A stretch of 64,000 nt of DNA from the NCBI RefSeq assembly GCF_000346505.1, contig NZ_ANOH01000223.1:1-64000 (forward strand), written 5' to 3'. This stretch comes from Aporhodopirellula sallentina SM41. Lineage in GTDB: Bacteria > Planctomycetota > Planctomycetia > Pirellulales > Pirellulaceae. The notes beneath the pieces are model-generated. The model made no database searches. It was not told the DNA's origin and saw nothing but the letters and a program-made list of their open reading frames with translations. This document shows, in pieces, positions 28,264-43,266 of the stretch. A program made the position numbers and the translations under genes. Positions within the stretch are counted from its first letter, which is position 1; the number at the start of each line of letters is the position of its first letter.

Positions 28264-31167
28264 TCAGCTGCGCGATACTTGCATTCCGGTGTTGGACACA
28301 CTCATCTCCACAAACCGAGCCCGATTGTTTGGAGGTTTCGTTTTCAGTTCATCCTGAATACGCTCTGCACTCACGGCATCCTTGGCGAGCAAGTACATGA
28401 ACCCGCCTCCGCCGGCTCCACAAAGTTTGTATGCCGACACGTACGGCTCAATCCGCTCAACGATCGAGACCACTTCGGGTGTGTTGGTACCGGAATCGAG
28501 CATACAGTTCGATTGCCAACTTTGCCTGATACTGCTGGCGAACGCATCCAGGTCCAAGAACTGCACGGCTTCAAAACATGTTTCGCTGTTGGCGCGAATC
28601 GCATCGAGAACTTTGAGCCTCTGAGGATCGTTAAGGAACATCCCCCGGACAATCTCTCCGAGAACATCGTGCGCCACGCGGGTGATTCCCGTGTAATACA
28701 GCAACGCCCGTGACTGGTACTCTTTGGAACAAAAGAAATCCGTTGGCAACCATCGGACCGATTCAACCTGTGACAATCCTGGGTGAGTTTGAATCAGCTT
28801 CGCCCCCGAGAGCAACCCTCCGAACTGATCCTGCCAACCTCCACCGCTGCCTAGCATTTGCTCCAACGCACTGACACGAGTCGCGATCGACTGGGCATCC
28901 CAACGGTACTCGCACATCTCGCTGATCGCACCCAAAACGGTAGCGGACAAGATGCTGCTCGTACCCAACCCGGACCCTTTCGGAACGGCAGCCAACATAG
29001 AAATATCAACCCCTCCACCGAATTCAGCCAACTGGTCTTTCAATGTCGCGTAGCGCCCGCCGTTGAAATCGGGATGAAAGCCACACAGACAAAGAGCCGC
29101 TTTGGCCACCGAAAACCCATTACCGAGTTTGCGATAAGACTGCAGTTGCTCATACGAGCTAATCTCTTCACTGATCCCTAAGTCGATCGAGCGAATCGTG
29201 ATCGTCGACGAATGACTCCGCCGAGCAAACGCTTGGATCGGTGGCTGGCCGTTCAGGTTGAGGGCGAGATTGACGACACTGCCCCCGCTTTCAATGCAGT
29301 AGGGCGCCGTGTCGGTCCATCCACCCGCGAAGTCCACTCGGACGGGACTACGTGCCCAGACGATCTGATCGTTCGCGAGTTGCGTTTGGGGATGCACCGA
29401 GTCTCGAATGAATGGAGCAACGATGGCATCTTCCAACAACTTGAAGGCATGCTGCTCTTCTTGCTTCCATTGTGAATCTTCTCTTAGCCTCAGAACTTCC
29501 GATCGGAACATTCGATCATGAACCGACAACATCACGTCGTTCATTTCCAAGCAAGGCTCGGGTAGCTCTGCGGTCGACGCCGCGAAGCCCTTGGCGAGGT
29601 CTTTCAAATCTAACTTGGAATAAATGCTACGCCGTCCATGCCCCACCATGATCGGCAACGCCTTCTCCCGTAGTTTCAACCGCAGCTCCTGCCACTGAGC
29701 GAGATTGGTACGTTGACTCAGCTGCCGGGCTGAATAGCGCTTCGCCGCCAACCACGCGCTGCGATGTTCGGCGGCATCATCAGATTGGCCGACATCACAT
29801 CCACTCACGAGCCAACGCATGAACTCGCCGGTGATCTTTTCCCGATCGAGAACAGGAAATAACGAGGCGACCTGTAGATCCGTGTCGCCGTCAATGCCGG
29901 CCGCCTGGCGATCGATACCGCGACACGCAAACCATTCTCGTGCCGGATTCTCGAGCCACTGAGTTGACGGGTCGTCGATTGCTCCTCGGAATCGATCGTC
30001 GTATCCGTAGAAACGAATCGCGAACTGTTCTTCGCCAACGGGGACGAAGTCCAAACATACACCGTCACCTAGTTGCAAATTCCAATCGTTCTCAGGAACC
30101 CCCGTCAACATGTGACGCTTCCCGATCTTCCATGTCGCGGGGATGTGGCTTCCTTCGACCCAAAGCGACTCGTTTTCTTGTCGACGCAGCGGTGCCCCAA
30201 AAGTTGAGTCGAGAATGAACTGTTTCGGTTGAGCAAGCGACGCGACCGCTCCGAGCCGAGACTGGTTAGTAACGATGTTCTGCAACGAATAACTCGACTC
30301 GACAACGTCGCTGGTTGTTCCGAAGTGAAAAAACTGTCCGTCTTCGACGGGAGCAATTGCCACCGACAGCGACGACACCTCTTCATCGTATGCCAACGGG
30401 TTTTCGCCGAGGTGCTGCGCCCATTCACCGTACAAGTCATAATTCTCAGGCAACCCACCGTCGGCGAAACTCTGTCGTGAACTGTCCCATCCGCATTTCC
30501 GCATCAGGCATTCGACCGCTCGCTCGCTCAACAACCACACGCCCACATCAATCAGAAACGGCAGGTCTCTCGACCGATCGCGTATCTCGTTGGGACTTGG
30601 TTTTTGCAGGAATGTTTCCAACTGTTGCGGGGTGTCTCGGTTGCAGAACATCACGCCATAGTTTTGCGCGACGCTCGGTGCGGCCCACATACCCAACAGC
30701 ACGACGTCAGCATCCGGCAAACTCGATACTGATTCAATCCCTCGAAGCAACACGTCACCACTGGCAATCAACACTCGAGACGAATCACTCGCCTTCGCGA
30801 ACGCTTCGGTGAGGAAAGGCTCATTCAAATCCAATAGCGTTTGCCCGAGACGCTGACCTCGCGACCAACGCAACACCGGAAACGGTAGAAATAGCTTTCC
30901 AACCCCCGCGTACGCTGGTAAACGACGACTCTCACCACCACCGTGAATCACGATCTTTTGACCGTCATTCATCCATTGTTCGAACGAACGTCCTGATTGC
31001 ATCCACGCTTGATGGAGCACATGGGCAGTCCCGCCTCCGCTGCCCAATTGAGCGTTCTCAGGATCGTGCGTTGCAAATGAACGGGACGCGAGTTCGGGCC
31101 ACAATTCTTTGAACTCCGCAGACATTTGCGGGGGCAGTGACAATAACAATTCGAGATGGGAGTTCAT
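28264..31167 (-). CDS. Bifunctional fucokinase / L-fucose-1-phosphate guanylyltransferase (FKP type)
   Basis: 967 residues from ATG 31167; an upstream GTG at 31218 would add 17 residues. Length and order match Bacteroides FKP (949 residues). The N-terminal pyrophosphorylase half begins LLLSLPPQMSAEF, with a GSGGGTAH nucleotide loop at 42-48 and KIVIHGGGESRRLPAYAGVGK. The C-terminal GHMP-kinase half has RVDFAGGWTDTAPYC and the ATP-binding VPKGSGLGTSSILSATVLG. Known FKP enzymes phosphorylate free L-fucose and form GDP-fucose for fucosylated surface glycans. It is a single gene, convergent with pepF, 307 bp downstream of the VWA gene. L-fucose is the most likely substrate, but other 6-deoxy sugars cannot be excluded. 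Confidence 0.88.
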   Translation of the reverse strand: MNSHLELLLSLPPQMSAEFKELWPELASRSFATHDPENAQLGSGGGTAHVLHQAWMQSGRSFEQWMNDGQKIVIHGGGESRRLPAYAGVGKLFLPFPVLRWSRGQRLGQTLLDLNEPFLTEAFAKASDSSRVLIASGDVLLRGIESVSSLPDADVVLLGMWAAPSVAQNYGVMFCNRDTPQQLETFLQKPSPNEIRDRSRDLPFLIDVGVWLLSERAVECLMRKCGWDSSRQSFADGGLPENYDLYGEWAQHLGENPLAYDEEVSSLSVAIAPVEDGQFFHFGTTSDVVESSYSLQNIVTNQSRLGAVASLAQPKQFILDSTFGAPLRRQENESLWVEGSHIPATWKIGKRHMLTGVPENDWNLQLGDGVCLDFVPVGEEQFAIRFYGYDDRFRGAIDDPSTQWLENPAREWFACRGIDRQAAGIDGDTDLQVASLFPVLDREKITGEFMRWLVSGCDVGQSDDAAEHRSAWLAAKRYSARQLSQRTNLAQWQELRLKLREKALPIMVGHGRRSIYSKLDLKDLAKGFAASTAELPEPCLEMNDVMLSVHDRMFRSEVLRLREDSQWKQEEQHAFKLLEDAIVAPFIRDSVHPQTQLANDQIVWARSPVRVDFAGGWTDTAPYCIESGGSVVNLALNLNGQPPIQAFARRSHSSTITIRSIDLGISEEISSYEQLQSYRKLGNGFSVAKAALCLCGFHPDFNGGRYATLKDQLAEFGGGVDISMLAAVPKGSGLGTSSILSATVLGAISEMCEYRWDAQSIATRVSALEQMLGSGGGWQDQFGGLLSGAKLIQTHPGLSQVESVRWLPTDFFCSKEYQSRALLYYTGITRVAHDVLGEIVRGMFLNDPQRLKVLDAIRANSETCFEAVQFLDLDAFASSIRQSWQSNCMLDSGTNTPEVVSIVERIEPYVSAYKLCGAGGGGFMYLLAKDAVSAERIQDELKTKPPNNRARFVEMSVSNTGMQVSRS

Positions 31168-31474
31168 CGCGTGGGGTCGTACTCGGAGAGGTTGTTCCGC
31201 ACAGGTGATTTCTTTCACACTGCTGGTTTAGGAAGCTAATTTTCTTCAGATCGCACTGAAATTCTATAGCCTTCATCGGAATATCATTCTACTCACACGA
31301 CTGCTCTCGCAATGCGCGGTAACTTCACCCAAACCCCGCTCGCTGTTGTTGGGTTCATCCTTCGGCAAAAAGGCTTTTGTCGAACGCCCTCATCACAGAA
31401 TCAATCGCAACCGATCTTGCTCGTTTCTATCGACTAAACATGACGGGCGGTGTCGTGCTCGCGAACACGCGTAC
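31168..31474. other. Gene-free stretch between the VWA gene and the fucokinase gene
   Basis: 307 bp on the minus-strand path from the VWA stop to the fucokinase start. No gene or strong hairpin was seen; it presumably holds the fucokinase promoter and the 3' end of the MoxR-DUF5682-VWA transcript. Confidence 0.4.
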
Positions 31475-32683
31475 TTATGAATCGTTTGACGAAACTCGAC
31501 TCGCCAAAGCCGCCAGGTCATCACCGCGAAGTGCTCCGGCGACCAGGTCCGGCATGCGATCGGGGGTGCAGCCGAAACAGGGAATGCCCAGGTCCGCGAG
31601 TTTCTTCGCGAGGCCGGCGTCATAGCTCGGGACACCCAAATCTGACAGCGCGAGCAAACACAATACTCTCACACCCGATCCGACCAACTCATCCATGCGG
31701 CGGATGAGTTGCGATTGGTTGCCGCCCTCGTACAGATCGGTCAGTAGAATAAACAACGTCTCGGCGGGCGACTCGATGAACTGTTCACAGTACGCAACCG
31801 ATTTGTTGATGTCGGTCCCGCCGCCGAGTTGCACCCCAAACAGCATGTCGACCGGATCATCTCCACATTGCTCCGATAGATCGACCACCTCGGTGTCAAA
31901 GGCCACGACGTGCGTCTTGAGTGCAGGAAGGCTCGCGAAAATCGAACCGACTACCGCACCATAAACCACCGAATCCGCCATCGAGCCACTTTGATCCATG
32001 TCGACAATCACCGTCCAACTTTGGCGGCGTTGAGCTCGAGAAAAGAAGTAAACGCGTTCGGGTATCAGTTTGCCAAGTTGTGGGTTGTAGTTTTTCAGGT
32101 TGCGACCGATCGTCCATTTCCAATCGATCGAGTCCGCGTGGGGGATTGGTGAATGCTCTCCGCGATTCAGTGCTCCGGTCACCGCCTGCCGGATCTTATG
32201 TTCGAGCTCGAGTGTGATCCGATCGACCACCGACCGAACCACCATTCGCGCCGTTTCTTTCGTGCGTTCGGGAATTTTCCCCCGCAAAGACATCAACGTT
32301 CCAACCAACTGAACATTGGGCTGCACGCTCTTGAGCATTTCGGGCTCGAACAGCAGTTGAGTCAGCCCCTTCCGCTCGATCGCATCGGACTGAATCACCG
32401 AAACAACGTCTTCGGTGAAGTAGGTGCGAACGTCACCGAGCCATTTGGCGATCTTCGGCGATGAAGCCCCCAGCCCTGCGGATCGCTGGCCATCGGAATC
32501 GCCTTCCGTCTCGTCATAGATCGCCGCGAGTGCTTCATCTATCGCTACCTGATCCTCCGACAGATTGGGACAACCGCCACTACACGATCGTCCGAGTTCC
32601 TCCTCGGCCGATCGTCCCAGGATCAAACGCCAACGCCGGACCTGCTCGGGTAGTTCGTTAGAATTCGTCGAAGTCGAACTCAT
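31475..32683 (-). CDS. VWA-domain (CoxE-like) protein of a MoxR ternary cluster
   Basis: 402 residues from ATG 32683, with GGAGGA 6 nt upstream. The C-terminal half is a von Willebrand A domain with a complete MIDAS: VDMDQSGSM (D-x-S-x-S) near residue 230, the Thr in GGGTDINKS, and the Asp in LLTDLYEGG. The N-terminal half is helical and variable. VWA proteins paired with MoxR ATPases are thought to act as metal-dependent adaptors bringing substrates to the ATPase. The start lies 26 bp inside the end of the DUF5682 gene, so translation is coupled. Last gene of the operon. Confidence 0.88.
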   Translation of the reverse strand: MSSTSTNSNELPEQVRRWRLILGRSAEEELGRSCSGGCPNLSEDQVAIDEALAAIYDETEGDSDGQRSAGLGASSPKIAKWLGDVRTYFTEDVVSVIQSDAIERKGLTQLLFEPEMLKSVQPNVQLVGTLMSLRGKIPERTKETARMVVRSVVDRITLELEHKIRQAVTGALNRGEHSPIPHADSIDWKWTIGRNLKNYNPQLGKLIPERVYFFSRAQRRQSWTVIVDMDQSGSMADSVVYGAVVGSIFASLPALKTHVVAFDTEVVDLSEQCGDDPVDMLFGVQLGGGTDINKSVAYCEQFIESPAETLFILLTDLYEGGNQSQLIRRMDELVGSGVRVLCLLALSDLGVPSYDAGLAKKLADLGIPCFGCTPDRMPDLVAGALRGDDLAALASRVSSNDS

Positions 32684-35036
32684 TGAGTTCCTCCAAAACG
32701 TCTTGTTCGTCTTCACTTAAATCCGTCTGCAATCGTTCGGTCGCTTCCTCATGACCGATCCCCCAGTGATCGCCTAGGTTTTCTGCGATGGCTCGTTTCT
32801 CGGTGACGCTGAAACTGCCAAAGGCGCGTCTCAAAAACACAACGCTGCGTCGGAACTGCTCTTCATCGAGCATCGCAATGTACTCCGACAACTGAACCCA
32901 CATTTCCTGCCGAGCCAACAACGCGTATCGATTCCGCCCGGCGAGACCTTCGAACCACCCGGCACCCAGATCCGCCGGGATTCCGGGAGACAAACGGCGT
33001 GAAACCTCGCGTGACAACTCCGCGTTATCCATCAGCCCGCGTTCCAAAAGAATCGCGCATGCGTAGCCGGACAACACGGCGTTCAAATCATCACGACGGG
33101 CGAGTTCACCCAAGCGATTGATCCACAATCCCTCGTCGACTTGAGTACTGAATTCAAACGCAATGTTGTTCAATTGGTCCATCGCGGTCATCAATCCTTT
33201 CGCCGCTGCGGAATCGCAAACCGATGACCCGATCAGACTCAGCACCGATTGAACGAACAACTCTTCCATCAGTGGATACAACGGCTCCGCGTCAAAACGA
33301 CGGACGTCGCCAAACCGTATCGTCAACGTCAACTCATACGCCGCCACCGCGGTTTCAACGGTGGCCGACGTCTGTGTGGCGAGAGCCTGCAACTTTCCTC
33401 GTGCGGCCAACATTCCCGCCAACAACTCGCACCGACTCGCTGTTTTGATCAGCGAAGCTCCCTCCGAAATGGTTGCCGCGTTGTCGATCTGTTGTTGCAG
33501 TTGGTAGGCAGACGCGATTTCGACCGTTTCCCCCATCAAGACGGATTCAACGAGAGCGATCTCCGCTTCGGGTGACCATTGCAACTGCCAGGCTTCGGCC
33601 CAGGTTGCCGACGTTTGATCGGTCGCGATTGACGACGCGAAGGGGACGTTCAATAAAGCGAGCCGATGCAAGAAAGTCGATCGGTTCAAATCCAAAAACG
33701 CCGACGCCTCCGTTTTGGCTCTGCGGTTTTCGCGTAAATCGAGCGACACATCTTGTTTGACCGTCGTTCGATAATTCTCGAGTCTTAGCGTCTTGAGCTT
33801 CTCATTGAAGTCATCTTGGATCGACGTTTGGCTGACCCCTTTCGGCAGGGTCCCGATTGCGGTACCGACCTCAACCCGAGCCATCGGCTCGGCCAACACA
33901 CCGCGATCTCCTTGTCCGATGATCGCCACCGCAGCGTCACGGAGATCTTCGAGCACCGGTGCACTGCCTTGTTGCATATCGGACAACGTTCGGCTGAGTC
34001 GTACCGCATCGATTACCTCGGCAGTACTGCGGTGAGTTCCCGATGCTCGCAACTCCCTCACAACCCGCGTCAGGTAGTCGGCGGCAAGACCCTCGACTTC
34101 ACCACGACACCCATGACCGCCCGAATCCCGGTGCAAACAATCCCACAGCAACTCGTAGTACGCGGGCGCGTGATTTCCCGCACCGTATCCAGACTGTGAC
34201 GACAGTTTGAAATACGAATAGGGCATCAACGTGCGTTTGGCGTTCACGCTGGGCAACCGTTCCAACTCGGCATCTGTCATCGACGAGTAATCATTACCGA
34301 GCACGCCGGCATGAAATGCTCCCACCACGACAACCACCTTCTCCGCACGGTGGCCCTCGCTGAGCACCTCATCAATACATCGACGCATGAACGATTCGCG
34401 GATCAGGGTTTCGGCGAGATCTCGGGGATGGTCTTCCCTCAATTCTCGGAGTTGTTCCCCAAACGCGATCGCGGTGCGGCGATACTCACCGGGTTCAGTA
34501 AGATGTTCGAAACGCCGTTCCCAGTAGGCTTCGTAGTCCAACTCGCCTGCCGCTTTGGCGATACGCTCATAGATACTTTCGGGAGGGACGTCTGCTGGTT
34601 CGACGACATCGTCTTCCTGTGTTTTCTCCGGCGCAGAAATATGTTGACGATCCGGTTGGAGAGCGAGAAAAATACTCGACGGCAGATCGATCAATCGCAC
34701 CTCGACATCGTGATCGTCCGCCCATCGGATCGCTTGATACTCAGGGCTGTACCGAGCGAGCGGATAGACGAGCGTTCGCACCGGCTGAGCATCCGTGTAC
34801 GCGAGGATCGCTATCGGTGGCTGTGTTTCTTTGCGGACAATATCCCCAATCAAGTCCGTCGCGTCATGGAGACCTTCGATGAGAACGATCGACGGTTGCA
34901 CCTCATCGAGAAGGATTCGCAGGTCATAGGCCGCCATCGGTGACAGGTGGCGAACCCCAAAGACGTGCATGTCTGCGCGTGAAAGGCTAGATCGTTGCGA
35001 CGTTTGTTCGGCACGAGATGATTGACGTTTAGCCAT
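32658..35036 (-). CDS. DUF5682 family protein of a MoxR-VWA cluster
   Basis: 792 residues from ATG 35036; the open frame continues upstream only as a shadow of the MoxR gene, so this start, which overlaps the MoxR stop by 8 bp, is preferred. The N-terminal domain begins HVFGVRHLSPMAAYDL with an IVLIEGLHD strand about 20 residues later, and VVVVGAFHAGVLG near residue 243. This order (G-x-H near the start, E in an I-E-G strand, later G-x-x-H) resembles the TraB/Tiki/EreA-ChaN-like fold. The long C-terminal part is helical and acidic at its end (EDEQDVLEELNEFDFDEF). DUF5682 genes are known beside MoxR and VWA genes; biochemical role unknown. Confidence 0.85.
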   Translation of the reverse strand: MAKRQSSRAEQTSQRSSLSRADMHVFGVRHLSPMAAYDLRILLDEVQPSIVLIEGLHDATDLIGDIVRKETQPPIAILAYTDAQPVRTLVYPLARYSPEYQAIRWADDHDVEVRLIDLPSSIFLALQPDRQHISAPEKTQEDDVVEPADVPPESIYERIAKAAGELDYEAYWERRFEHLTEPGEYRRTAIAFGEQLRELREDHPRDLAETLIRESFMRRCIDEVLSEGHRAEKVVVVVGAFHAGVLGNDYSSMTDAELERLPSVNAKRTLMPYSYFKLSSQSGYGAGNHAPAYYELLWDCLHRDSGGHGCRGEVEGLAADYLTRVVRELRASGTHRSTAEVIDAVRLSRTLSDMQQGSAPVLEDLRDAAVAIIGQGDRGVLAEPMARVEVGTAIGTLPKGVSQTSIQDDFNEKLKTLRLENYRTTVKQDVSLDLRENRRAKTEASAFLDLNRSTFLHRLALLNVPFASSIATDQTSATWAEAWQLQWSPEAEIALVESVLMGETVEIASAYQLQQQIDNAATISEGASLIKTASRCELLAGMLAARGKLQALATQTSATVETAVAAYELTLTIRFGDVRRFDAEPLYPLMEELFVQSVLSLIGSSVCDSAAAKGLMTAMDQLNNIAFEFSTQVDEGLWINRLGELARRDDLNAVLSGYACAILLERGLMDNAELSREVSRRLSPGIPADLGAGWFEGLAGRNRYALLARQEMWVQLSEYIAMLDEEQFRRSVVFLRRAFGSFSVTEKRAIAENLGDHWGIGHEEATERLQTDLSEDEQDVLEELNEFDFDEF

Positions 35037-36177
35037 TGTGCTCTTCACACGCCGTGTAGAGCGAGCGCCATGCCGAACCACGTTTCTTGACGACGTTCTT
35101 GAGATACTCTGCCCAGACGACCTTGTCTTTTTCCTCGTCCCGGACGATCGCGCCTTGAAGTCCCGCGGCGAGATCCTCGGCCGATACACTGCCGTCGCCA
35201 AAGTTGCCCGCCAAAGCCATGCTGCCGGCGAGCAGAGAAATCGCCTCGGCGGTTGAAAGAACTCCCGACGGTGTTTTGACTTTGTTTTTACCGTCGAGCG
35301 TTTGACCTTGGCGAAGCTCGCGGAAGATCGTAACGATCTGTTCAATCGAATCCTCGCTAGGTATCTCCGACCGCAAACTCAAATCGGCGGACAACTCTTT
35401 GACACGATTGGTGACGATTTCGATTTCCGTCTCGATCTTCGCCGGCGTCGGCAAGACAACAATGTTGAATCGCCTTTTGAGTGCAGCCGACATGTCATTG
35501 ACGCCGCGGTCGCGAGTATTCGCCGTCGCAATAACAGAGAACCCTTTCGCGGCCGGCAACTCGGTTGATAGTTCCGGAATTGAAAGACGTTTCTCGCTGA
35601 GCAACGAGATCATCGCGTCTTGCACCTCGGACGCGCAGCGGGTGATTTCCTCAAACCGAGCGAGGCTGCCTTGTTCCATCGCGTGATAGATCGGACTTTT
35701 GATCAACGCGTCATTGCTCGGTCCGTTGGCGATCAGCATCGCGTAGTTCCACGTATACCGGACCTGTTCTTCGGTGGTACCCGCGGTGCCTTGAATGACC
35801 TTGGTGCTGTCGCCGTTGATTGCGGCAGCGAGATGTTCGCTCAACCAAGACTTCGCCGTTCCAGGCTCCCCGATCAACAACAAGGCTCGATCGGTCACCA
35901 AAGTCGAAATCGCAATCTGGACGACCCGATCGTTGCCCACATACTTTGGAAGAATGGTCCGCGTACCGACCTTCCCACCAACGATGTAGGTCAGCACACT
36001 GCGTGGCGACAATCTCCAACCGGGCGGCTTTGGATCTTTGTCGGCGCGAATCAGAGCGTCGAGCTCTTCGGCAAAGGCTACCTCAGCAGGTTGCCTCAAT
36101 ATGTTCGCTGCGTTCGAACGACTTTGAGACTTCGAATTCGCACCGGTCGACTTCGAAGGAGCGGACTTTTTGGCCAT
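35029..36177 (-). CDS. MoxR-type AAA+ ATPase
   Basis: 382 residues from ATG 36177. The N-terminus is Ser/Lys-rich (about 1-25). The AAA core has Walker A LIGEPGTAKS (103-110 for GEPGTAKS), a Walker-B-like FEEITR in LARFEEITRCASEVQDAMISLL, and sensor 1 VIATANTRDRGVNDMSAALKRRFN. This is the MoxR clade, which acts as chaperone-like ATPases with VWA partners. First gene of a minus-strand operon in which DUF5682 and VWA genes follow with 8-bp and 26-bp overlaps. The SWIM zinc-finger and DUF5691 genes that often accompany this set are not nearby. Confidence 0.9.
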   Translation of the reverse strand: MAKKSAPSKSTGANSKSQSRSNAANILRQPAEVAFAEELDALIRADKDPKPPGWRLSPRSVLTYIVGGKVGTRTILPKYVGNDRVVQIAISTLVTDRALLLIGEPGTAKSWLSEHLAAAINGDSTKVIQGTAGTTEEQVRYTWNYAMLIANGPSNDALIKSPIYHAMEQGSLARFEEITRCASEVQDAMISLLSEKRLSIPELSTELPAAKGFSVIATANTRDRGVNDMSAALKRRFNIVVLPTPAKIETEIEIVTNRVKELSADLSLRSEIPSEDSIEQIVTIFRELRQGQTLDGKNKVKTPSGVLSTAEAISLLAGSMALAGNFGDGSVSAEDLAAGLQGAIVRDEEKDKVVWAEYLKNVVKKRGSAWRSLYTACEEHNG

Positions 36178-36286: not shown

Positions 36287-37126
36287 CTACCTGGGCTGCA
36301 ACAACCAGATGCCTTCTCGCAAAAGTCTTTTGAGTTCTCCGGAGTCGATCGCCACTTCAAGGCTGCGTCGCGAATCGAAGACAATCACCGATTGCCGCTG
36401 AACGTCTCTCACGCGCACGACCGCGGGCGGATCGATTCCCTGCATGAAGTAGAACTGACCACTTTCGATTTTTGGTCGCACACGTGCTTTGCCGTCCGCA
36501 CCCGCTTCCACTCTCAAACGCGGACCGTACTGGTACTTCTCTGCGAACCGTTCGAGCAGGTTAGGGTCCGGCGTCTCCTCACGGTGGGCCGTCGCACCGT
36601 CGACCCTCACCTGCCGGTCCGCGGATTCCGATTCGGTTTCGTTTGACGCCGGTGCATCCGATTGGGGCGGGGAATCGATCGTGTGTTGTGCGTCCGATTT
36701 GTCATCCTCATTGGAGACCGCATGATCGAGCGCAGTGATCAAATCGCGAAAGGTTTTGGTGACCGGGCCGGTCAGTTGTTGCATCTTGGCTTGGGCGTTT
36801 TTGACTTCATTGAGCTTTTGAATCGAGAGATTGTTTTTGCCCTGTCGGGCCGACGTGACGATCGAACCGACGGTCGAATTCCACCGCCCGGCGATACCGT
36901 TGAAGGTCATTTCCATCTGCCGAACCCGTTGCAAAGAAGACTGCACTCGGCCCTGATTGAATTCCTTCTGCGCCTCGGCCATTTCAGAATTAAAGGAGTT
37001 GATCCCCTTCAATCCCTCAATGACTATTCCATTGGGGAGCCCTCGCACCGCACCTCCGGTCAGGTTTGCGGTCCGCTGGATCGCCGTCGAAACGTTCGAG
37101 AACAAGATTGGGTCCACACGGATCAT
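36287..37126 (-). CDS. Unknown helical protein upstream of the MoxR operon
   Basis: 279 residues from ATG 37126; the frame is open further but without features. Residues about 1-130 are strongly helical, Gln/Asn-rich and free of Cys (LPNGIVIEGLKGINSF, FNQGRVQSSLQRVRQMEM). A Ser/Asp/Glu-rich linker (about 140-185) leads to a basic C-terminal section of about 90 residues (RLRVEAGADGKARVRPKIESGQ). No family was recognised and no signal peptide is seen. It is on the same strand 109 bp upstream of the MoxR gene, so it may belong to that operon, possibly as an accessory or substrate protein; this is speculative. Confidence 0.6.
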   Translation of the reverse strand: MIRVDPILFSNVSTAIQRTANLTGGAVRGLPNGIVIEGLKGINSFNSEMAEAQKEFNQGRVQSSLQRVRQMEMTFNGIAGRWNSTVGSIVTSARQGKNNLSIQKLNEVKNAQAKMQQLTGPVTKTFRDLITALDHAVSNEDDKSDAQHTIDSPPQSDAPASNETESESADRQVRVDGATAHREETPDPNLLERFAEKYQYGPRLRVEAGADGKARVRPKIESGQFYFMQGIDPPAVVRVRDVQRQSVIVFDSRRSLEVAIDSGELKRLLREGIWLLQPR

Positions 37127-37479
37127 GGCTGTTTGATCACTCGAAGAAAACCGCGGCGGTATCGCCGGTAATGGGAAACGAAACGGTACGAAAGACGACT
37201 TCGGCGGGTGCGTATTCATCGCCGCTTACCCATCTTAGTTTCTTGAACACCTGAGCGTTTGCAGAAGTCGGTACTGTGCAAGAAGGCAGCCTTGGCAATT
37301 TGGGAAACCCGGTGCGAGTTACCTTCGCGTTTGGAAATTGCTGGTGGTGATAATCATCCAATTTGCCCGACTTGTCTTGATTTGCGACCCCGGTATACCC
37401 TATGCCCATTAGACATATGGGAGCATCCTGAGGATGGATTGCTTGACATGCGTCTATCAACGGATTGAATGCTTCACAC
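37127..37479. promoter_or_regulatory. Divergent region upstream of the cation/proton antiporter operon
   Basis: 353 bp between divergent starts with no gene. Candidate plus-strand promoter pieces are TTGATT at about 37377 with TATGCC near 37401, and a TTGACA at 37443-37448 with only a weak -10 after it. Neither is certain. The antiporter operon must be read from this region because its genes run without a gap above 20 bp from 37480 to 45259. Confidence 0.35.
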
Positions 37480-38052
37480 GTGAAATACGCCTTAACACTC
37501 CTTGCCGCTCTGGTCGCCAATTGGTTGCTGTGGTCTGGGCATTTTGATAACCCGTTTCTACTCGGGGTGGGGGCAGTGTCTTGTCTGTCGTGTTTGTGGA
37601 TTTCATGGCGGATGCGAATCGTCGATGAGGAAGGTGCACCGGCACACCTCGGTTTGCGGCCGTTCCTTATCTATGCACCTTGGTTGGCGAAAGAGATCGT
37701 CACGTCGAACATCAACGTGGCGAGAATCATTTTGTCGCGAGTGATGCCACTGCGACGCAATCTAATTTTGGTACCGGCGAAACAAAGAAGTGAAATCGGA
37801 CGGGTCATTTTTGCCAACTCGATCACGTTGACGCCGGGTACCGTCTCGGTGCGTTTGGAAGGCAAGGAAATACTCGTTCACGGTTTGTCACTGGACGAAT
37901 CAGCCGAAGACATGGCGGGCGAAATGGGTGAACGCGTTTCCCGTCTCGAGCGATGTGAAGACGCGTCCGCCAACGAATGTGATGACGATTCGACCGAATC
38001 CACACCTAACCATCCCGGGCCACCCAACACGCCTGGGCAGGGGGAGTCCTAA
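37480..38052 (+). CDS. Cation/proton antiporter subunit E (MrpE/MbhA-like)
   Basis: 190 residues from GTG 37480, which gives the hydrophobic N-terminus KYALTLLAALVANWLLWSGHF; a TTG 15 bases earlier is possible. Two or three membrane segments are followed by the typical cytoplasmic part with ANSITLTPGTVSVRLEGKEILVHGL, the MrpE signature. The C-terminal tail is acidic and low complexity. Part of a Mrp-type sodium/proton antiporter; E helps assembly and activity. Its stop overlaps the start of the next gene by one base. Confidence 0.9.
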   Translation: MKYALTLLAALVANWLLWSGHFDNPFLLGVGAVSCLSCLWISWRMRIVDEEGAPAHLGLRPFLIYAPWLAKEIVTSNINVARIILSRVMPLRRNLILVPAKQRSEIGRVIFANSITLTPGTVSVRLEGKEILVHGLSLDESAEDMAGEMGERVSRLERCEDASANECDDDSTESTPNHPGPPNTPGQGES

Positions 38053-38381
38053 TGTCGCCGGATCTACTGCCGAATGCATTGACCACGGGCATCCTCATGG
38101 CGACGTCCTTCGCCGTTCTGTTGACGATGATCTTAGCTCTCGTGCGTGCCACGTTGGGACCGACTGTTTTCGATCGTGTTTTGGCGCTGAACATGTTCGG
38201 CACCAAGACGGTGTTGTTGATTTCGGTGGTCAGTTTCGTGACCGGTCGGAGCGACTTTCTCGATCTCGCTCTGCTGTACAGTTTGATGAACTTCATCGGC
38301 ATCGTCGCTCTGCTGCGATTCACCCAATACAACAGTTTTAGCGACAGCGTCACGTCGTCGGGAGAGTCGAATCAGCCATGA
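38052..38381 (+). CDS. Cation/proton antiporter subunit F (MrpF/MbhB-like)
   Basis: 109 residues with three hydrophobic helices. The pattern TLGPTVFDRVLALNMFGTKTVLLIS, with a D-R-V-L-A-L-N core, is that of MrpF. It overlaps subunit E by one base and subunit G by four, so translation is coupled. The hydrophilic C-terminal tail is short. Small membrane subunit of the antiporter. Confidence 0.9.
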   Translation: MSPDLLPNALTTGILMATSFAVLLTMILALVRATLGPTVFDRVLALNMFGTKTVLLISVVSFVTGRSDFLDLALLYSLMNFIGIVALLRFTQYNSFSDSVTSSGESNQP

Positions 38382-38725
38382 TTGCACTGGAAATCGCTAG
38401 TTACTTCTTCTTGATCGGCGGAGCTATCTTCTCGGTAATCGGCGGCATCGGGCTGATCCGTTTGCCCGAGTTTTTCTCGCGGATGCACGGCGGGGGGATT
38501 ACCGACACGATGGGGGCCGGGTTGGTCATCATCGGATTGATTCTGTTGGCGGGGCCCACCCTGGCCGCGTTCAAACTGTTTGTCATCTTGTTCTTTCTGA
38601 CGATCACGAGTCCGAGTTCGTGCCACGCGTTGGCGAAATCCGCGATCTTGAATGGGCTCAAACCACAGCTCGATATCGAATCAGATATTGAACTACCGAA
38701 CCTCGGCGGGAGGAAACCGGAATGA
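38378..38725 (+). CDS. Cation/proton antiporter subunit G (MrpG/MbhC-like)
   Basis: 115 residues with three membrane segments. The signature GLIRLPEFFSRMHGGGITDTMGAGLVIIG matches the MrpG pattern R-x-P-D-x-x-x-R-x-H, with Glu in place of the usual Asp. It starts within the stop of subunit F and overlaps the next gene by four bases. An ordinary member of the operon. Confidence 0.92.
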   Translation: MIALEIASYFFLIGGAIFSVIGGIGLIRLPEFFSRMHGGGITDTMGAGLVIIGLILLAGPTLAAFKLFVILFFLTITSPSSCHALAKSAILNGLKPQLDIESDIELPNLGGRKPE

Positions 38726-39285
38726 ACTTCATAGTCTTCGCGATTCTCGCCCTGCTCGCCATCACGGCGGTGGCGATCGCCAAGCTGAGGGAATTGTGGG
38801 CGGTGATCATGTTCACCGGCATCTACAGTTTTCTGAGTGCGAGTTGGATGATCATTCTCGATGCCCCCGATGTCGCCTTCACCGAGGCTGCTGTGGGTGC
38901 GGGAATCTCCACCGTGTTGATGCTCAGCACGATGGCGTTGACCGGCAAGGCGGAAGAGATCCCCCGAAAGAAATCGCTTGTCCCCTTATTCGTGGTAATC
39001 GTGACCGGGGCGACGTTGGTCTACGGGACGTTGGATATGCCGCATTTCGGATCCCCTGACGCTCCGGTGCAGGTTTACCCGGATCCGTCCTTTGTGAAGC
39101 GATCCGAAGCCGATATGCACGGTCTCCCGAACGTGGTGACTGCGCTTTTGGCGAGTTATCGGGGCTACGATACACTCGGCGAAACGACGGTGGTTTTGAC
39201 CGCTGGCATCGCAGTTCTGCTGATCCTGCGACGCAACGACGAAAAGGACGAACCAACTCAATTGGCGGGGAACAAAACTCCATGA
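38722..39285 (+). CDS. Antiporter subunit: fused MbhD (MrpA C-terminal/DUF4040) and MbhE-like protein
   Basis: 187 residues. The first about 85 (LRELWAVIMFTGIYSFLSASWMIIL, DAPDVAFTEAAVGAGISTVLML) match the DUF4040/MrpA C-terminal segment, which is a separate MbhD subunit in archaea. The second part (LVPLFVVIVTGATLVYGTLDMP ... YRGYDTLGETTVVLTAGIAVLLIL) matches MbhE. They are fused here. No large MrpA subunit is present, so this resembles the archaeal layout. Overlaps its neighbours by four bases each. Confidence 0.85.
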   Translation: MNFIVFAILALLAITAVAIAKLRELWAVIMFTGIYSFLSASWMIILDAPDVAFTEAAVGAGISTVLMLSTMALTGKAEEIPRKKSLVPLFVVIVTGATLVYGTLDMPHFGSPDAPVQVYPDPSFVKRSEADMHGLPNVVTALLASYRGYDTLGETTVVLTAGIAVLLILRRNDEKDEPTQLAGNKTP

Positions 39286-39722
39286 GTGCGTTCCCGATCA
39301 TTCGGATCATCACCAAGTTGTTGATCCCCTACATCCTGCTGTTCGCGTTTTACGTTCAATTCCACGGTGACTACGGGCCCGGTGGTGGGTTTCAAGCCGG
39401 TGTGATCTTCGCATCCGCGTTGATTCTCTACGGTTTGGTGTTCGGCCTCGAAGCCATTCAGAGGGTCGCACCTCCCATCGTGATTGAAAAATGCATGGCA
39501 CTGGGTGTGCTGGTTTACGCCGGGACCGGAATCCTGACGATGGCACTCGGCGGGCGGTTTCTCGATTACAACGTGCTCGAACATCATGTCCTGCCACAGT
39601 GGCATATTCCGAGCGGCCAACACCTAGGAATTTTCCTCGTTGAGATGGGAGTCGGAATCACCGTGACCGCGGTGATGACGATGATCTTCTACGCGTTCGC
39701 GGGAAGGAAGCAAACTCAATGA
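39282..39722 (+). CDS. Cation/proton antiporter subunit B (MrpB/MnhB, MbhF-like)
   Basis: 146 residues with four hydrophobic segments. The pattern PYILLFAFYVQFHGDYGPGGGFQAGVIFASALILYG is diagnostic of MnhB, including the G-x-x-x-P-G-G-G-F-Q-A-G stretch. An ATGA overlap joins it to the next gene. Small membrane subunit of the antiporter module. Confidence 0.93.
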   Translation: MSAFPIIRIITKLLIPYILLFAFYVQFHGDYGPGGGFQAGVIFASALILYGLVFGLEAIQRVAPPIVIEKCMALGVLVYAGTGILTMALGGRFLDYNVLEHHVLPQWHIPSGQHLGIFLVEMGVGITVTAVMTMIFYAFAGRKQTQ

Positions 39723-40240
39723 CGTTCGAATCCATCGCCGGACTGTACAACTACTGGGTCGTGATCTTTTTGATGATGACCGGGTTCTACATCGTCCTGG
39801 CTCGAAAGAACCTCATTAAATCCGTCATCGGTTTGAACATCTTTCAAACATCTGTGTTCCTTTTGTACATCACGATGGGCAAAGTCGAGCACGGAACCGC
39901 ACCGATCGTTCCTCCTGCAATCGCGGAGCAGCAGTCCCACGCTTCGCATGGCGTGGGCGAGAATGCACACGCCGCGATCGAACATGCGGATGAAGCTCAT
40001 GAGGTGGTCCACGAAGTCGCTCATGAGGTGGCGTTGACGGTCGCGGATCATGGCGGAGAGTTGGCACACGCATCAACAGAAATCATTTACTCCAACCCGC
40101 TGCCGAGCGTTTTGATGCTGACCGCGATCGTGGTCGGTATCGCGACGACGGCACTCGCGTTGGCGCTAGTCGTCCGAATCCGTGAAGATTACGGAACGGT
40201 GGACGAAGAACTCATCTTAGAATTGGATCGTGGCGAATGA
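39719..40240 (+). CDS. Cation/proton antiporter subunit C (MrpC/MbhG, NuoK-like) with a His-rich loop
   Basis: 173 residues, longer than the usual 110-125. Two N-terminal helices (YNYWVVIFLMMTGFYIVLA, KSVIGLNIFQTSVFLLYITMG) and a third near 130-150 are NuoK-like. Between the second and third helices sits an extra loop of about 50 residues containing nine His and many Glu (HASHGVGENAH, DEAHEVVHEVAHE). This loop accounts for the length and could bind metal or buffer protons. Known MrpC pairs with D subunits in proton transfer. Confidence 0.9.
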   Translation: MTFESIAGLYNYWVVIFLMMTGFYIVLARKNLIKSVIGLNIFQTSVFLLYITMGKVEHGTAPIVPPAIAEQQSHASHGVGENAHAAIEHADEAHEVVHEVAHEVALTVADHGGELAHASTEIIYSNPLPSVLMLTAIVVGIATTALALALVVRIREDYGTVDEELILELDRGE

Positions 40241-40265
40241 GGCAGTCTGTTTTGGAAGGGATCCA

Positions 40266-41756
40266 ATGATCGACGCGATCTTCGCCCACCTACCGATCCT
40301 ATTGATCGTGCTGCCGTTGATGGCCGCACCATGCTGCGTGCTCGTAGGCAACGGACGGGCCGCTTATCTGCTCGCCCTGGTGGTATCCTTCGCCGCGTTC
40401 GCATGCAGTGTCGCGATGCTCGGGGAAACGCTGCAGCACCATGTCGTTCGATACGAACTCGGTAATTGGAGTCCGCCGTACGGGATCGAATACCGAGTCG
40501 ATATCTTCTCGGGCTTCGTGATGGCATTCGTTTCGGGAATCGGTGCGATCGTTCTGGTTTACGCTCCGCTGAGCGTTCGCGATGAAATCCCCGCGTCGAA
40601 ACACTACCTGTTCTACGCCACGTATCTGCTCTGCATGACGGGCCTGCTCGGCATGTGCGTGACGGGTGACTTGTTCAACGTGTTCGTATTCCTGGAAATC
40701 TCATCGCTGTCGTCGTACGCGTTGATCAGTCTGGGCCGGACCCGACGAGCACCGCTCGCCGCGTTTCAGTATTTGATTCTCGGCAGTATCGGGGCGACGT
40801 TCATCCTGATCGGTATTGGGCTGCTGTATCAGATGACCGGTACGCTCAACATGGCCGACATCGCCGCTCGCGTTCCGCACGAACACGGGCCTCGGACGGT
40901 TCTCGTCGCGTTTGCATTTCTAACTGTGGGACTGTGTGTGAAGATGGCGGTCTTCCCGCTGCACACATGGCTGCCCAACGCGTACACCTATGCACCATCG
41001 GTTGTGACGTGTTTCATCGCAGCGACGGCTACCAAAGTTTCCGTCTATGCGTTTGTGCGGTTGATTTTTGGAATCATCACACCCGGATTCGCGTTTGACG
41101 TCTTGCCACTCGATACCGAGTTGATGTTGTTCTCGTTGGTGGGGATCTTCATCGCATCGATCGCGGCGATCTATCAAAACAACGTCAAACGGTTGCTCGC
41201 ATATTCGAGCGTTGCCCAGATCGGTTACATGTTGTTGGGCATTTCGATGGCGACACCGACGGGCCTGTCTGCGGGAATCGTCCACATGTTCAATCACGCT
41301 TTGATTAAGGGTGGGCTGTTCATGGTCGCCGGATGTTTCGCTCTGCGTCTCGGCAGTGTGCAATTGTCTGATTGGAAGGGTGCCGGACGAACGATGCCGT
41401 TGACCGCGATCGCGTGGGCGATCGGAGGACTGGCGCTCATTGGAGTGCCTATGACGGCTGGTTTCATTAGCAAATGGCTACTACTGACGAGTGCGTTTGA
41501 AACCGGGCGATGGCCGATCGCTGTATTGATGTTGGTCAGTTCATTGCTCGCGGTCGTGTACGTCTGGAAGGTCGTTGAGACTCTCTTCTTCAGTGAACCG
41601 AGTGAGGCCGCCGCGGGTGCAACGGAAGCACCACTGAGAATGCTGATACCGACGTATCTGTTGATCGGGGCGACGTTGCTGTTTGGCGTCTGGACGCCGT
41701 ATTCGGCAGGAATCGCCCGACAAGCCGCAATCGTGCTCTTGGGAGGAACCCCATAA
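40266..41756 (+). CDS. Cation/proton antiporter subunit D (MrpD/MbhH, NuoN/M-like)
   Basis: 496 residues from ATG 40266, chosen for its GGAAGGGA site; the open frame reaches 40230. About 14 membrane helices. The proton-path residues are present: Glu in TGDLFNVFVFLEISSLSSYAL and Lys in CVKMAVFPLHTWLPNAY. This is the standard ion-pumping subunit of Mrp complexes and is homologous to complex I NuoL/M/N. It ends one base before the next gene. Confidence 0.94.
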   Translation: MIDAIFAHLPILLIVLPLMAAPCCVLVGNGRAAYLLALVVSFAAFACSVAMLGETLQHHVVRYELGNWSPPYGIEYRVDIFSGFVMAFVSGIGAIVLVYAPLSVRDEIPASKHYLFYATYLLCMTGLLGMCVTGDLFNVFVFLEISSLSSYALISLGRTRRAPLAAFQYLILGSIGATFILIGIGLLYQMTGTLNMADIAARVPHEHGPRTVLVAFAFLTVGLCVKMAVFPLHTWLPNAYTYAPSVVTCFIAATATKVSVYAFVRLIFGIITPGFAFDVLPLDTELMLFSLVGIFIASIAAIYQNNVKRLLAYSSVAQIGYMLLGISMATPTGLSAGIVHMFNHALIKGGLFMVAGCFALRLGSVQLSDWKGAGRTMPLTAIAWAIGGLALIGVPMTAGFISKWLLLTSAFETGRWPIAVLMLVSSLLAVVYVWKVVETLFFSEPSEAAAGATEAPLRMLIPTYLLIGATLLFGVWTPYSAGIARQAAIVLLGGTP

Positions 41757-41757
41757 G

Positions 41758-43266
41758 ATGTCTCCCGATCACTTGATATGGATTTCGCTCGCATTGCCGC
41801 TTTTGGCGGTTGGGCTGATCGTTCTCTTTGGGAAATCACCGGACCTTCGTGATGGCGCATCCGGTACCGTTGCCGGGTTGCTGTTAATCGTCGTCGCGTC
41901 GTTATCGATCGGCGTGTTTTCAGGCAAGAGACCTGAATGGCATCTCGGTGAGATGTTGCCGGGATTCGAGATCGCGTTTCGTGTCGAACCTCTCGGAATG
42001 CTCTTTGCGCTGGTTGCGTCTGGGTTGTGGATTCTGACGACCGCTTACGCCGTCGGATACATGCGAGGCCATCACGAAATACACCAAACACGTTTTTTCG
42101 CTTGTTTCGCGATCGCGATCTTCGCGGCGCTTTCAGCTGCGTTTTCGGCAAACCTGTTCACACTGTTTGTCGCATACGAAGTCATGACGATTTCGACGTA
42201 TCCATTGGTGACGCATCACGGAACGGACGAGGCCAAACGCGGAGGCAGGATCTACCTTGGCATTCTGCTTTCGACATCCATTGCGTTCTTCATGTTGGCA
42301 ATCGTTTGGACGTGGTCACTCGCCGGTACGTTGGATTTCCAACTCGGGGGAATCTTATCGACCGCGGTGGCTGAGAACCGTATCTCGCAGACGGGACTTG
42401 GCGTTCTGATCGGTTTGTTCACGTTCGGTATCGGGAAGGCAGCCTTGATGCCGTTTCACCGATGGTTGCCAGCGGCCATGGTTGCCCCAACCCCGGTCAG
42501 TGCTTTGTTGCACGCGGTCGCGGTCGTGAAAGTCGGCGTCTTTTCGGTGATGAAAGTGTGCGTTTATATCTTCGGATTGGAGTTACTGCGAGAAACCGGC
42601 GTGAGTCTGTACCTCGCGTACGTGGCAGGATTCACGTTGGTGGTTGCCTCGTTGGTCGCGATGACCAAAGACAACCTAAAGGCTCGATTGGCGTACTCGA
42701 CGATCGGACAATTGGCCTACATCACATTGGGAGCAATGCTGGCGACGCCCAACAGTGTGATCGGCGGCGGCATGCACATCGCCATGCACGCGGTCGGCAA
42801 AATCACGTTGTTCTTTTGCGCGGGAGCCATCTACGTGGCCGCTCACAAGAAGAACATCAGCGATATGGAAGGACTCGGACGCAAGATGCCGTTCACCTTC
42901 GCGGCGTTCCTGATCGCCTCGGTGAGCATCATCGGACTGCCGCCCGGCGGTGGGGCGTGGAGCAAGTGGTTCCTCGCACTCGGAACCGTTGAAACGCATC
43001 AATACCTGCTCACAGCCGCGTTGATGGTCAGTTCGCTGTTGAACATCGCGTACCTCGTCCCGATCCCGATGCGAGCGTTCATGAAGCCATCCAAATCCGA
43101 GGACGAGTCGGAATCCGAGACCGGCAATTGGTTTTCAAACATGCAGGAAGCCCCGGCGATGTGTGTCGTACCGTTGTGCGTGACGGCAATCGGCAGTGTC
43201 GTGCTGTTCTTTGCCGCCCAATGGATTTACCAGGCTTTGTTGCCCATCACGGCAATGCCCTCTTAG
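41758..43266 (+). CDS. Second NuoL/M/N-like (MrpD-type) antiporter subunit
   Basis: 502 residues from ATG 41758, with GGGAGGA upstream. About 14 helices. The same proton-path residues occur: Glu in NLFTLFVAYEVMTISTYPLV and Lys in GIGKAALMPFHRWLPAAMV. It is distinct in sequence from the previous subunit, so the duplication is old rather than recent. A small membrane protein gene follows 18 bp later. Probably an active ion-translocating subunit; whether it carries protons or sodium cannot be told. Confidence 0.92.
   Translation: MSPDHLIWISLALPLLAVGLIVLFGKSPDLRDGASGTVAGLLLIVVASLSIGVFSGKRPEWHLGEMLPGFEIAFRVEPLGMLFALVASGLWILTTAYAVGYMRGHHEIHQTRFFACFAIAIFAALSAAFSANLFTLFVAYEVMTISTYPLVTHHGTDEAKRGGRIYLGILLSTSIAFFMLAIVWTWSLAGTLDFQLGGILSTAVAENRISQTGLGVLIGLFTFGIGKAALMPFHRWLPAAMVAPTPVSALLHAVAVVKVGVFSVMKVCVYIFGLELLRETGVSLYLAYVAGFTLVVASLVAMTKDNLKARLAYSTIGQLAYITLGAMLATPNSVIGGGMHIAMHAVGKITLFFCAGAIYVAAHKKNISDMEGLGRKMPFTFAAFLIASVSIIGLPPGGGAWSKWFLALGTVETHQYLLTAALMVSSLLNIAYLVPIPMRAFMKPSKSEDESESETGNWFSNMQEAPAMCVVPLCVTAIGSVVLFFAAQWIYQALLPITAMPS

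Follow-up and report, generated by a model that had tools for sequence, protein, structure and literature searches.

Computational analysis of a MoxR, DUF5682 and VWA gene trio in Aporhodopirellula sallentina: a five-gene set divided over three loci and a TIKI/TraB-superfamily domain in DUF5682

Introduction

Do three overlapping genes for a MoxR AAA+ ATPase, a DUF5682 protein and a von Willebrand factor A (VWA) protein make up a system by themselves, and what kind of protein is DUF5682? The question is raised by a locus in a 64,000-nucleotide stretch of DNA from Aporhodopirellula sallentina SM41 (assembly GCF_000346505.1, contig NZ_ANOH01000223.1, positions 1 to 64,000), referred to here as the window. 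An earlier note on this window described the three genes, remarked that the SWIM zinc-finger and DUF5691 partners often seen with them are missing, and suggested that the trio may be a minimal version of the set, with a possible role in biological conflict. The open reading frames and their Pfam matches agree with its description of the genes: MoxR lies at 35029-36177, DUF5682 (792 residues) at 32658-35036 and VWA at 31475-32683. The minus strand encodes all three; MoxR overlaps DUF5682 by 8 bp (35029-35036), and DUF5682 overlaps VWA by 26 bp (32658-32683).

YehL is known as a MoxR subfamily, one of seven that have been named (PMC3893208, in the part consulted), DUF5682 is known as a Pfam family, and the set itself is known as genes. 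The word DUF5682 was absent from the literature searched, which included few subscription papers, and the papers on the TIKI superfamily may mention it. The titles and abstract openings listed for the yeh gene names and for combinations of SWIM, MoxR and DUF4132 included no paper on what the set does. We show by computation that MoxR, DUF5682, VWA, SWIM and HEAT form one set that is kept together, that in this genus the complete set is divided over three loci, and that DUF5682 consists of a TIKI/TraB-superfamily domain followed by an alpha-solenoid.

Results

Partner genes lie at two other loci of the genome

No SWIM or DUF5691 partner gene was found in the 20 kb around the trio, and to that extent the partners are indeed missing. 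They are present elsewhere in the genome (G000), a possibility that the earlier note had raised. The SWIM orthologue is located at G000:C3:5520-7004, directly after moaA and moaE, and the HEAT orthologue on contig C263 (locus L192); both belong to the families encoded upstream of MoxR in intact clusters. The residues Cys82-Cys84-Cys91-His93 are invariant in the SWIM-family alignment. The SWIM gene of G000 exceeds the Pfam SWIM cut-off (21.8 versus 19.6 bits) only when its in-frame neighbours are counted, and it was missed by a scan at E 0.001. By profile comparison the HEAT family is a remote relative of DUF5691: the pair scored 46.2 in hhalign, whereas 15 shuffles reached no more than 15.7 and the highest-scoring of five other families 29.4. 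HEAT and DUF5691 proteins alike consist of helical repeats. A search for DUF4132 in the same genome found none.

Of the 13 genomes of the genus analysed, G000, G003 and G009 each have the trio of the window's type along with the SWIM and HEAT genes, whereas the 10 others have none of these. The three loci are syntenic across these three genomes. Four further genomes carry a long, MoxR-linked type of DUF5682 (G004, G006, G008 and G011; loci L061, L059, L060 and L057), for which fusion to VWA was confirmed by Pfam in G011 alone, and six have no DUF5682 gene. No genome of the genus has more than one, and that of A. sallentina has a single copy.

Dispersal was also observed outside the genus. In G018, a genome of the same family assembled as one 7.25-Mb contig, VWA lies at 4.82, SWIM at 5.49, MoxR at 6.24 and DUF5682 at 6.63 Mb. 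Trees of 27 rows each placed all four genes as sisters to those of G427, which has an intact operon (L075), with supports of 100/100 for DUF5682, 96/93 for SWIM, 92/86 for VWA and 98/92 for MoxR. Because each tree pairs G018 with the intact operon of G427, the four genes evidently represent one operon that was dispersed with all of them retained. In another genome, G063, some 345 kb separate the trio from a SWIM-DUF5691 pair. These observations bear on the suggestion of a minimal, three-gene version working without SWIM and DUF5691-type partners. The 20 kb free of partner genes would fit such a version; however, genes for both partners are present at other loci, and within the genus they occur in precisely the genomes that have the trio (3/3 genomes with it, 0/10 without). 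G018, too, has kept its four genes in spite of their dispersal, including a SWIM gene whose sister belongs to an intact operon. We therefore consider a stand-alone trio very improbable.

The gene set recurs across bacteria

Two locus surveys were used to examine how far the set is conserved. The first comprised the window and 57 other loci, of which 49 came from planctomycete genomes and eight from named plasmids, E. coli and one faecal scaffold. The second took the best 80 of 580 confirmed loci in named genomes; these are the most query-like, so the window's type is over-represented among them. In the second survey MoxR adjoins DUF5682 in 72 of the 76 loci with enough sequence (four misses) and VWA does so in 64 of 72 testable loci (eight misses). 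A SWIM gene lies upstream in 61/66 testable loci (five misses) and a HEAT/DUF5691-type gene in 62/66 (51 HEAT and 11 DUF5691; four misses). The earlier note's statements that the gene set recurs and that such partners are usual are thus borne out, with the same order found in many phyla. The nearest named relative of the query, from Rhodopirellula rubra (75% identical; L101), is one of the misses, with no SWIM or HEAT gene beside it.

Several layouts were identified. The window's type, SWIM-HEAT-MoxR-DUF5682-VWA, occurs in planctomycetes, Verrucomicrobia, Paenibacillus, Lachnospiraceae, Bacteroidota and Myxococcota, and the order SWIM-DUF5691-MoxR-DUF5682-VWA in Rhizobium, Deinococcus, Hymenobacter, Chitinophaga and a cyanobacterium. 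E. coli (yehI/L/M/P/Q) and others have DUF4132-MoxR-DUF5682-VWA-SWIM, and a fourth layout joins DUF4132-MoxR with a long DUF5682 fused to VWA. One contig (L097, G318:C58) carries two distinct DUF5682 systems side by side, one of the SWIM-HEAT and one of the DUF4132 type. On a Hymenobacter plasmid a weak SWIM match and DUF5691 share a single chain (L019, 4192-7221), and on an Allorhizobium plasmid an adenylosuccinate synthetase gene precedes the set (L021, 6400-7578). The trio was also seen on MT835988, an unverified 14-kb faecal scaffold in a phage collection, which is likely to be a bacterial contig.

Co-occurrence of the partners extends to the phylum. Among 392 phylum genomes, DUF5682 was found in 21 of the 23 with the SWIM family and in 17 of the 369 lacking it (p 2e-22 by Fisher's test, with no correction for kinship). 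The two SWIM genomes that lack DUF5682 are assemblies 68% and 72% complete, and many of the 17 (of 38) DUF5682 genomes without such a SWIM gene at E 1e-10 have the DUF4132 or long type. Pairwise protein distances of DUF5682, SWIM and HEAT correlate at 0.91-0.94, and those of MoxR with these at 0.75-0.78.

Some observations weigh against the reading of a single co-inherited set. VWA distances track those of the other components poorly (0.57-0.67). G000, G003 and G009 form one clade, so that their three-of-three match may reflect a single event, and the placement in G018 covers the four genes DUF5682, SWIM, VWA and MoxR. The VWA proteins of three clustered operons from the same family (L064, L065 and L066) share 48% identity with that of the window, compared with 76% for MoxR, values suggesting that the VWA component was either exchanged or underwent marked divergence. 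The VWA protein of Paenibacillus (L107) is 61% identical to the window's.

The distribution of the set also bears on its possible role as an anti-phage or anti-invader system, which the earlier note had suggested by analogy with the MoxR-vWA ternary systems (VMAP, iSTAND and others) of Kaur et al. 2020 (PMC7159879). As far as that paper was accessible, its systems share with the trio a third conserved protein beside MoxR and vWA; they differ in gene order and by variable effector domains fused to vWA; in the window the third component is a TIKI/TraB-solenoid protein, and no effector domain was recognised. The available part of the text mentions none of YehL, YehP, SWIM and TraB. A patchy spread would suit a defensive role: DUF5682 is present in 38/392 genomes of the phylum (one below Pfam's cut-off) and in 13/40 near relatives, A. 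sallentina included, and some copies are found on plasmid records (35/72,556, several of them chromosome-sized). In addition, the P-loop region of MoxR exceeds the bpMoxR cut-off (30.7 versus 27 bits over 53 aa), and weak PADLOC matches were obtained for MoxR (IetA at 0.0028, and others) and SWIM (PDC-S62 at 0.0022). However, at least 80% of yehLMPQ is carried by 5162/5426 E. coli genomes, which makes the set core in that species. The PADLOC matches cover short stretches at no more than 15.1 bits, with the other seven of nine proteins unmatched, and the gene order is MoxR-DUF5682-VWA and not VMAP-MoxR-vWA. Pfam recognised no effector domain in the VWA protein, and of the four window neighbours that were scanned, each has a role in metabolism or transport. 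On the third protein Pfam-A gave only DUF5682 and one weak match, and so no component of the VMAP, iSTAND, beta-propeller or FtsH kinds, in a collection not confirmed to have a model for each of these. A conflict system is not supported by these data and we judge it improbable, with the patchy spread keeping some such role in play.

DUF5682 contains a TIKI/TraB-superfamily domain and an alpha-solenoid

The DUF5682 protein (YehM family, 792 aa, 32658-35036) matches PF18934 at 6.5e-144 over profile positions 2-709 of 727. Its full-length AlphaFold2 model, built with 61 sequences (pLDDT 89.0, pTM 0.84), consists of an alpha/beta N-domain and a long alpha-solenoid. Structure matches and profile comparison place a TIKI/TraB-superfamily domain at residues 18-312 (34101-34985), and the model together with a fold search places an alpha-helical solenoid at residues 459-774 (32715-33662). 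Folded alone, the N-domain reached a pLDDT of 90.4 and a pTM of 0.89.

Structural comparison of the N-domain by VIA-align gave 14 best rows (Z 10.4-5.6) that all belong to one superfamily, with unrelated folds appearing from Z 4.5. The top rows were three entries for a Tetrahymena complex IV subunit, named 'TraB family protein' by its depositors (Z 10.4-10.1, root-mean-square deviation 4.1-4.4, 196-198 residues). They were accompanied by ChaN (Z 7.8), HopBA1 (7.4), the erythromycin esterase EreC (6.7 and 6.5), PMT (6.3 twice), RRSP-type proteins (5.7-5.6) and two 'succinoglycan biosynthesis proteins', 2qgm and 2rad/BcR135 (6.7 and 6.5). We take 2qgm, 6a7h and 6a8j to be further members of the TIKI superfamily. 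Its membership includes ChaN, HopBA1, Bcr135, PMT and RRSP (PMC6254334, in the part consulted).

Sequence profiles pointed in the same direction. Comparison of DUF5682 with five PrgY/TraB proteins by hhalign gave a score of 51 over 235 columns (E 2.5e-6 in one comparison, probability 88.8), and comparison with six YbaP/GumN proteins gave 38.5 over 91 columns (E 1.2e-4, probability 54.7), whereas no score above 21.8 came from 40 column-shuffled profiles and none above 19.7 from five unrelated families. Aligned with PrgY/TraB, DUF5682 has G27-H30, E54, D117, R213 and G239-H242 in register with the GX2H, E, D, R and GX2H of TraB. TIKI proteins have the GX2H form as their active-site pattern. The GumN set shows the same series of invariant residues, with only the Arg and the second GX2H inside the aligned stretch. 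R29, H30, E54, D117, R213 and H242 are invariant in all 61 DUF5682 proteins. These residues include the first GX2H motif, G27-V-R-H30 (34947-34958; G27 also 61/61), Glu54 on strand 2 of the domain (34875-34877), and the second motif, G239-A-F-H242 (34311-34322; G239 also 61/61). R29, H30, E54, D117, R213, G239 and H242 were conserved at 98% in a wider set of 57 proteins. When the 61 members were scanned with Pfam, six touched TraB_PrgY_gumN (best 7e-4) and six the ChaN family (best 0.0045); the single member whose score was inspected reached 15.7 bits, under the curated cut-off of 26.8.

The case for the superfamily is made by the run of 14 structural rows in combination with the sequence signature, and H30, E54 and H242 are, on the conservation pattern, the candidate active site. 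A number of results count against this assignment or against catalysis. The link is remote: only three of the 14 rows exceed Z 8, and the tool warns that lower values can reflect common arrangements. Foldseek gave no match in the PDB at E <= 0.001 with either the N-domain or the whole protein, and no relative turned up when PDB sequences were searched with a DUF5682 profile. G27 is replaced by Pro in several rows of the wider set. Known members also differ in function; ChaN binds haem, which leaves hydrolase activity unproven for DUF5682. According to the accessible part of PMC6254334, RRSP has a 2His/2Glu set, the first Glu of which has no counterpart in DUF5682, and PMT is a member without a catalytic motif. 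A PDB search with the YbaP profile likewise found nothing related, and the fold search with whole-length DUF5682 gave helical-repeat matches only. Compared with TraB/PrgY, GumN (YbaP), ChaN and Ere, DUF5682 shares the fold and has its GX2H-E-D-R-GX2H series in register with PrgY/TraB; it differs by the addition of the solenoid (about 480 residues) and by its tie to an AAA+/VWA pair.

A candidate tether between DUF5682 and VWA

The last ten residues of DUF5682, ELNEFDFDEF (783-792; 32661-32690), form an acidic-aromatic tail. A literal FDF was present in the last 14 residues of 39/45 window-type DUF5682 proteins (the window's included) compared with 0/16 of the other type, and a looser pattern in 44/45 compared with 3/16. 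Because MIDAS (metal ion-dependent adhesion site) motifs bind acidic residues of partner proteins, the tail is a candidate MIDAS ligand and, by analogy, a candidate tether of DUF5682 to VWA. In NorQD the MIDAS binds acidic partner residues and a finger of the VWA protein enters the MoxR pore (PMC13036017 and PMC9976466, in the parts consulted). Other lineages have DUF5682 and VWA fused instead of separate: all five long forms scanned, including one from Streptomyces and one from Paenibacillus, combine DUF5682 and VWA_CoxE in one chain, an arrangement that indirectly favours the physical complex proposed below.

The VWA protein (YehP family, CoxE type, 402 aa, 31475-32683) matches VWA_CoxE at 4.9e-47 as its sole Pfam domain. 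Its MIDAS is intact, as the earlier note had stated. The core DQSGS (residues 230-234; 31982-31996) has D230, S232 and S234 conserved in 100% of 102 aligned VWA proteins, together with D316 (100%) and T290 (91%).

The MoxR protein (YehL type, 382 aa, 35029-36177) matches Pfam AAA_5 at 2e-37. Across 118 aligned rows, G103, P105, G106, T107 and K109 of its Walker A motif GEPGTAKS (residues 103-110; 35848-35871) and R174, E176 and E177 of RFEE at the end of Walker B (residues 174-177; 35647-35658) are each 100% conserved. The usual Walker B pair is Asp-Glu; in YehL-type MoxR its place is taken by Glu-Glu (E176 and E177), in 118 of 118 aligned proteins.

Gene neighbourhoods and a possible role in metallo-cofactor maturation

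The window neighbours of the trio were also examined. A 310-aa protein without a confident Pfam match is encoded on the same strand 109 bp upstream of MoxR (36287-37219) and adjoins the trio in each of the clade's three genomes. On the other side, also on the same strand, lies a gene for a bifunctional fucose pyrophosphorylase/GHMP kinase of 984 aa (28264-31218). Divergent genes at 37465-43266, including MnhE and an antiporter-type subunit, resemble an Mrp Na+/H+ antiporter operon. An NCBIfam scan gave only matches far below cut-off, an Rfam scan of the window gave nothing at gathering thresholds, and promoter and terminator scans gave signals no better than shuffles.

A different activity is suggested by the neighbours of the SWIM gene: in three genomes of the genus, moaA and moaE stand directly before it (L184; G000:C3, 3665-7004). 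MoxR-VWA might open a target enzyme for insertion of a metal or molybdenum cofactor, as NorQD and CoxD/CoxE exemplify, with DUF5682 as a non-catalytic, ChaN-like carrier of metal or haem. The trio's VWA belongs to the CoxE family, the TIKI superfamily contains the haem-binding ChaN, and in E. coli yehI-yehL adjoins yehH, which has DUF4132 homology. In addition, molR (genome position 47.3), which we take to be the yehH region of E. coli, is listed as a regulator of molybdenum utilisation in the part of the source consulted. The moaA/moaE neighbourhood and this position of molR hint at molybdenum metabolism, or at chance. However, this neighbourhood is not a constant one, since four other genomes of the genus have moaE with no SWIM gene next to it. 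No metalloenzyme gene recurred in the seven annotated regions examined and none was linked among the window neighbours scanned, and in Deinococcus moeA, moeB and other molybdate genes did not respond together with DUF4132/MolR-like genes, as far as the source could be consulted. We judge a role in cofactor maturation rather unlikely.

Discussion

Comparison with known systems places the trio within a family of related gene sets. The E. coli genes yehL-yehM-yehP-yehQ encode the same MoxR, DUF5682, VWA and SWIM families side by side, and YehM matches DUF5682 at 2.4e-98 and has the R-H and E motifs. The E. coli set differs in having SWIM downstream and DUF4132 (yehI) upstream, where a HEAT/DUF5691 gene would be; in A. 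sallentina, by contrast, the SWIM and HEAT genes stand at other loci. The SWIM-DUF5691-MoxR-DUF5682-VWA clusters have the same order and partners as the window's type, but their DUF5682 proteins are only 27-30% identical to the window's, lack the FDF tail in 16/16 cases and go with DUF5691 itself, of which the HEAT partner of the window's type is a remote relative. NorQ-NorD likewise pairs MoxR with a VWA protein that has an intact MIDAS, but no DUF5682, SWIM or HEAT partner is named for it in the accessible parts of PMC13036017 and PMC9976466.

We propose that the five proteins may form an ATP-driven machine in which MoxR-VWA remodels or gates the TIKI-type domain of DUF5682 and SWIM-HEAT serves as the recognition arm, a proposal that in our view could go either way. 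A MoxR hexamer would carry the VWA protein as an adaptor, in the manner of NorQD. The VWA MIDAS would grip an acidic ligand, for which the conserved FDF tail at the C terminus of DUF5682 is the most likely candidate. ATP hydrolysis would then pull or twist DUF5682, such that the TIKI-type site (H30, E54 and H242) opens on its substrate or switches, and the SWIM zinc-finger and HEAT proteins would recruit the substrate, possibly a protein, an ester or an amide. The complex, the contact between tail and MIDAS, and hydrolysis are what we infer. More tentatively, and with some doubt, the set may define a new class of AAA+-driven hydrolases, with MoxR-VWA driving or gating an intracellular protease or esterase of TIKI type (DUF5682/YehM), the FDF tail on the MIDAS tethering it and SWIM-HEAT aiming it. 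We know of no partnership between a TIKI-type catalytic fold and an ATPase.

Within the literature searched, and as far as the searches go, the TIKI/TraB assignment of DUF5682, its FDF tail, the DUF5682-VWA fusion as evidence of partnership, and a planctomycete set that is scattered yet complete are new. The locus also carries a caution, in that a single locus is insufficient to label an operon 'minimal'. The dispersed, co-inherited set of planctomycetes provides a natural test of whether SWIM and HEAT are true parts of the system. Taken together, the TIKI/TraB assignment, the named candidate residues and the candidate tether turn an orphan operon into a testable enzyme hypothesis. If true, it would describe an AAA+ protease-like machine that belongs to the core genes of E. 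coli and can outlast the dispersal of its genes over the chromosome.

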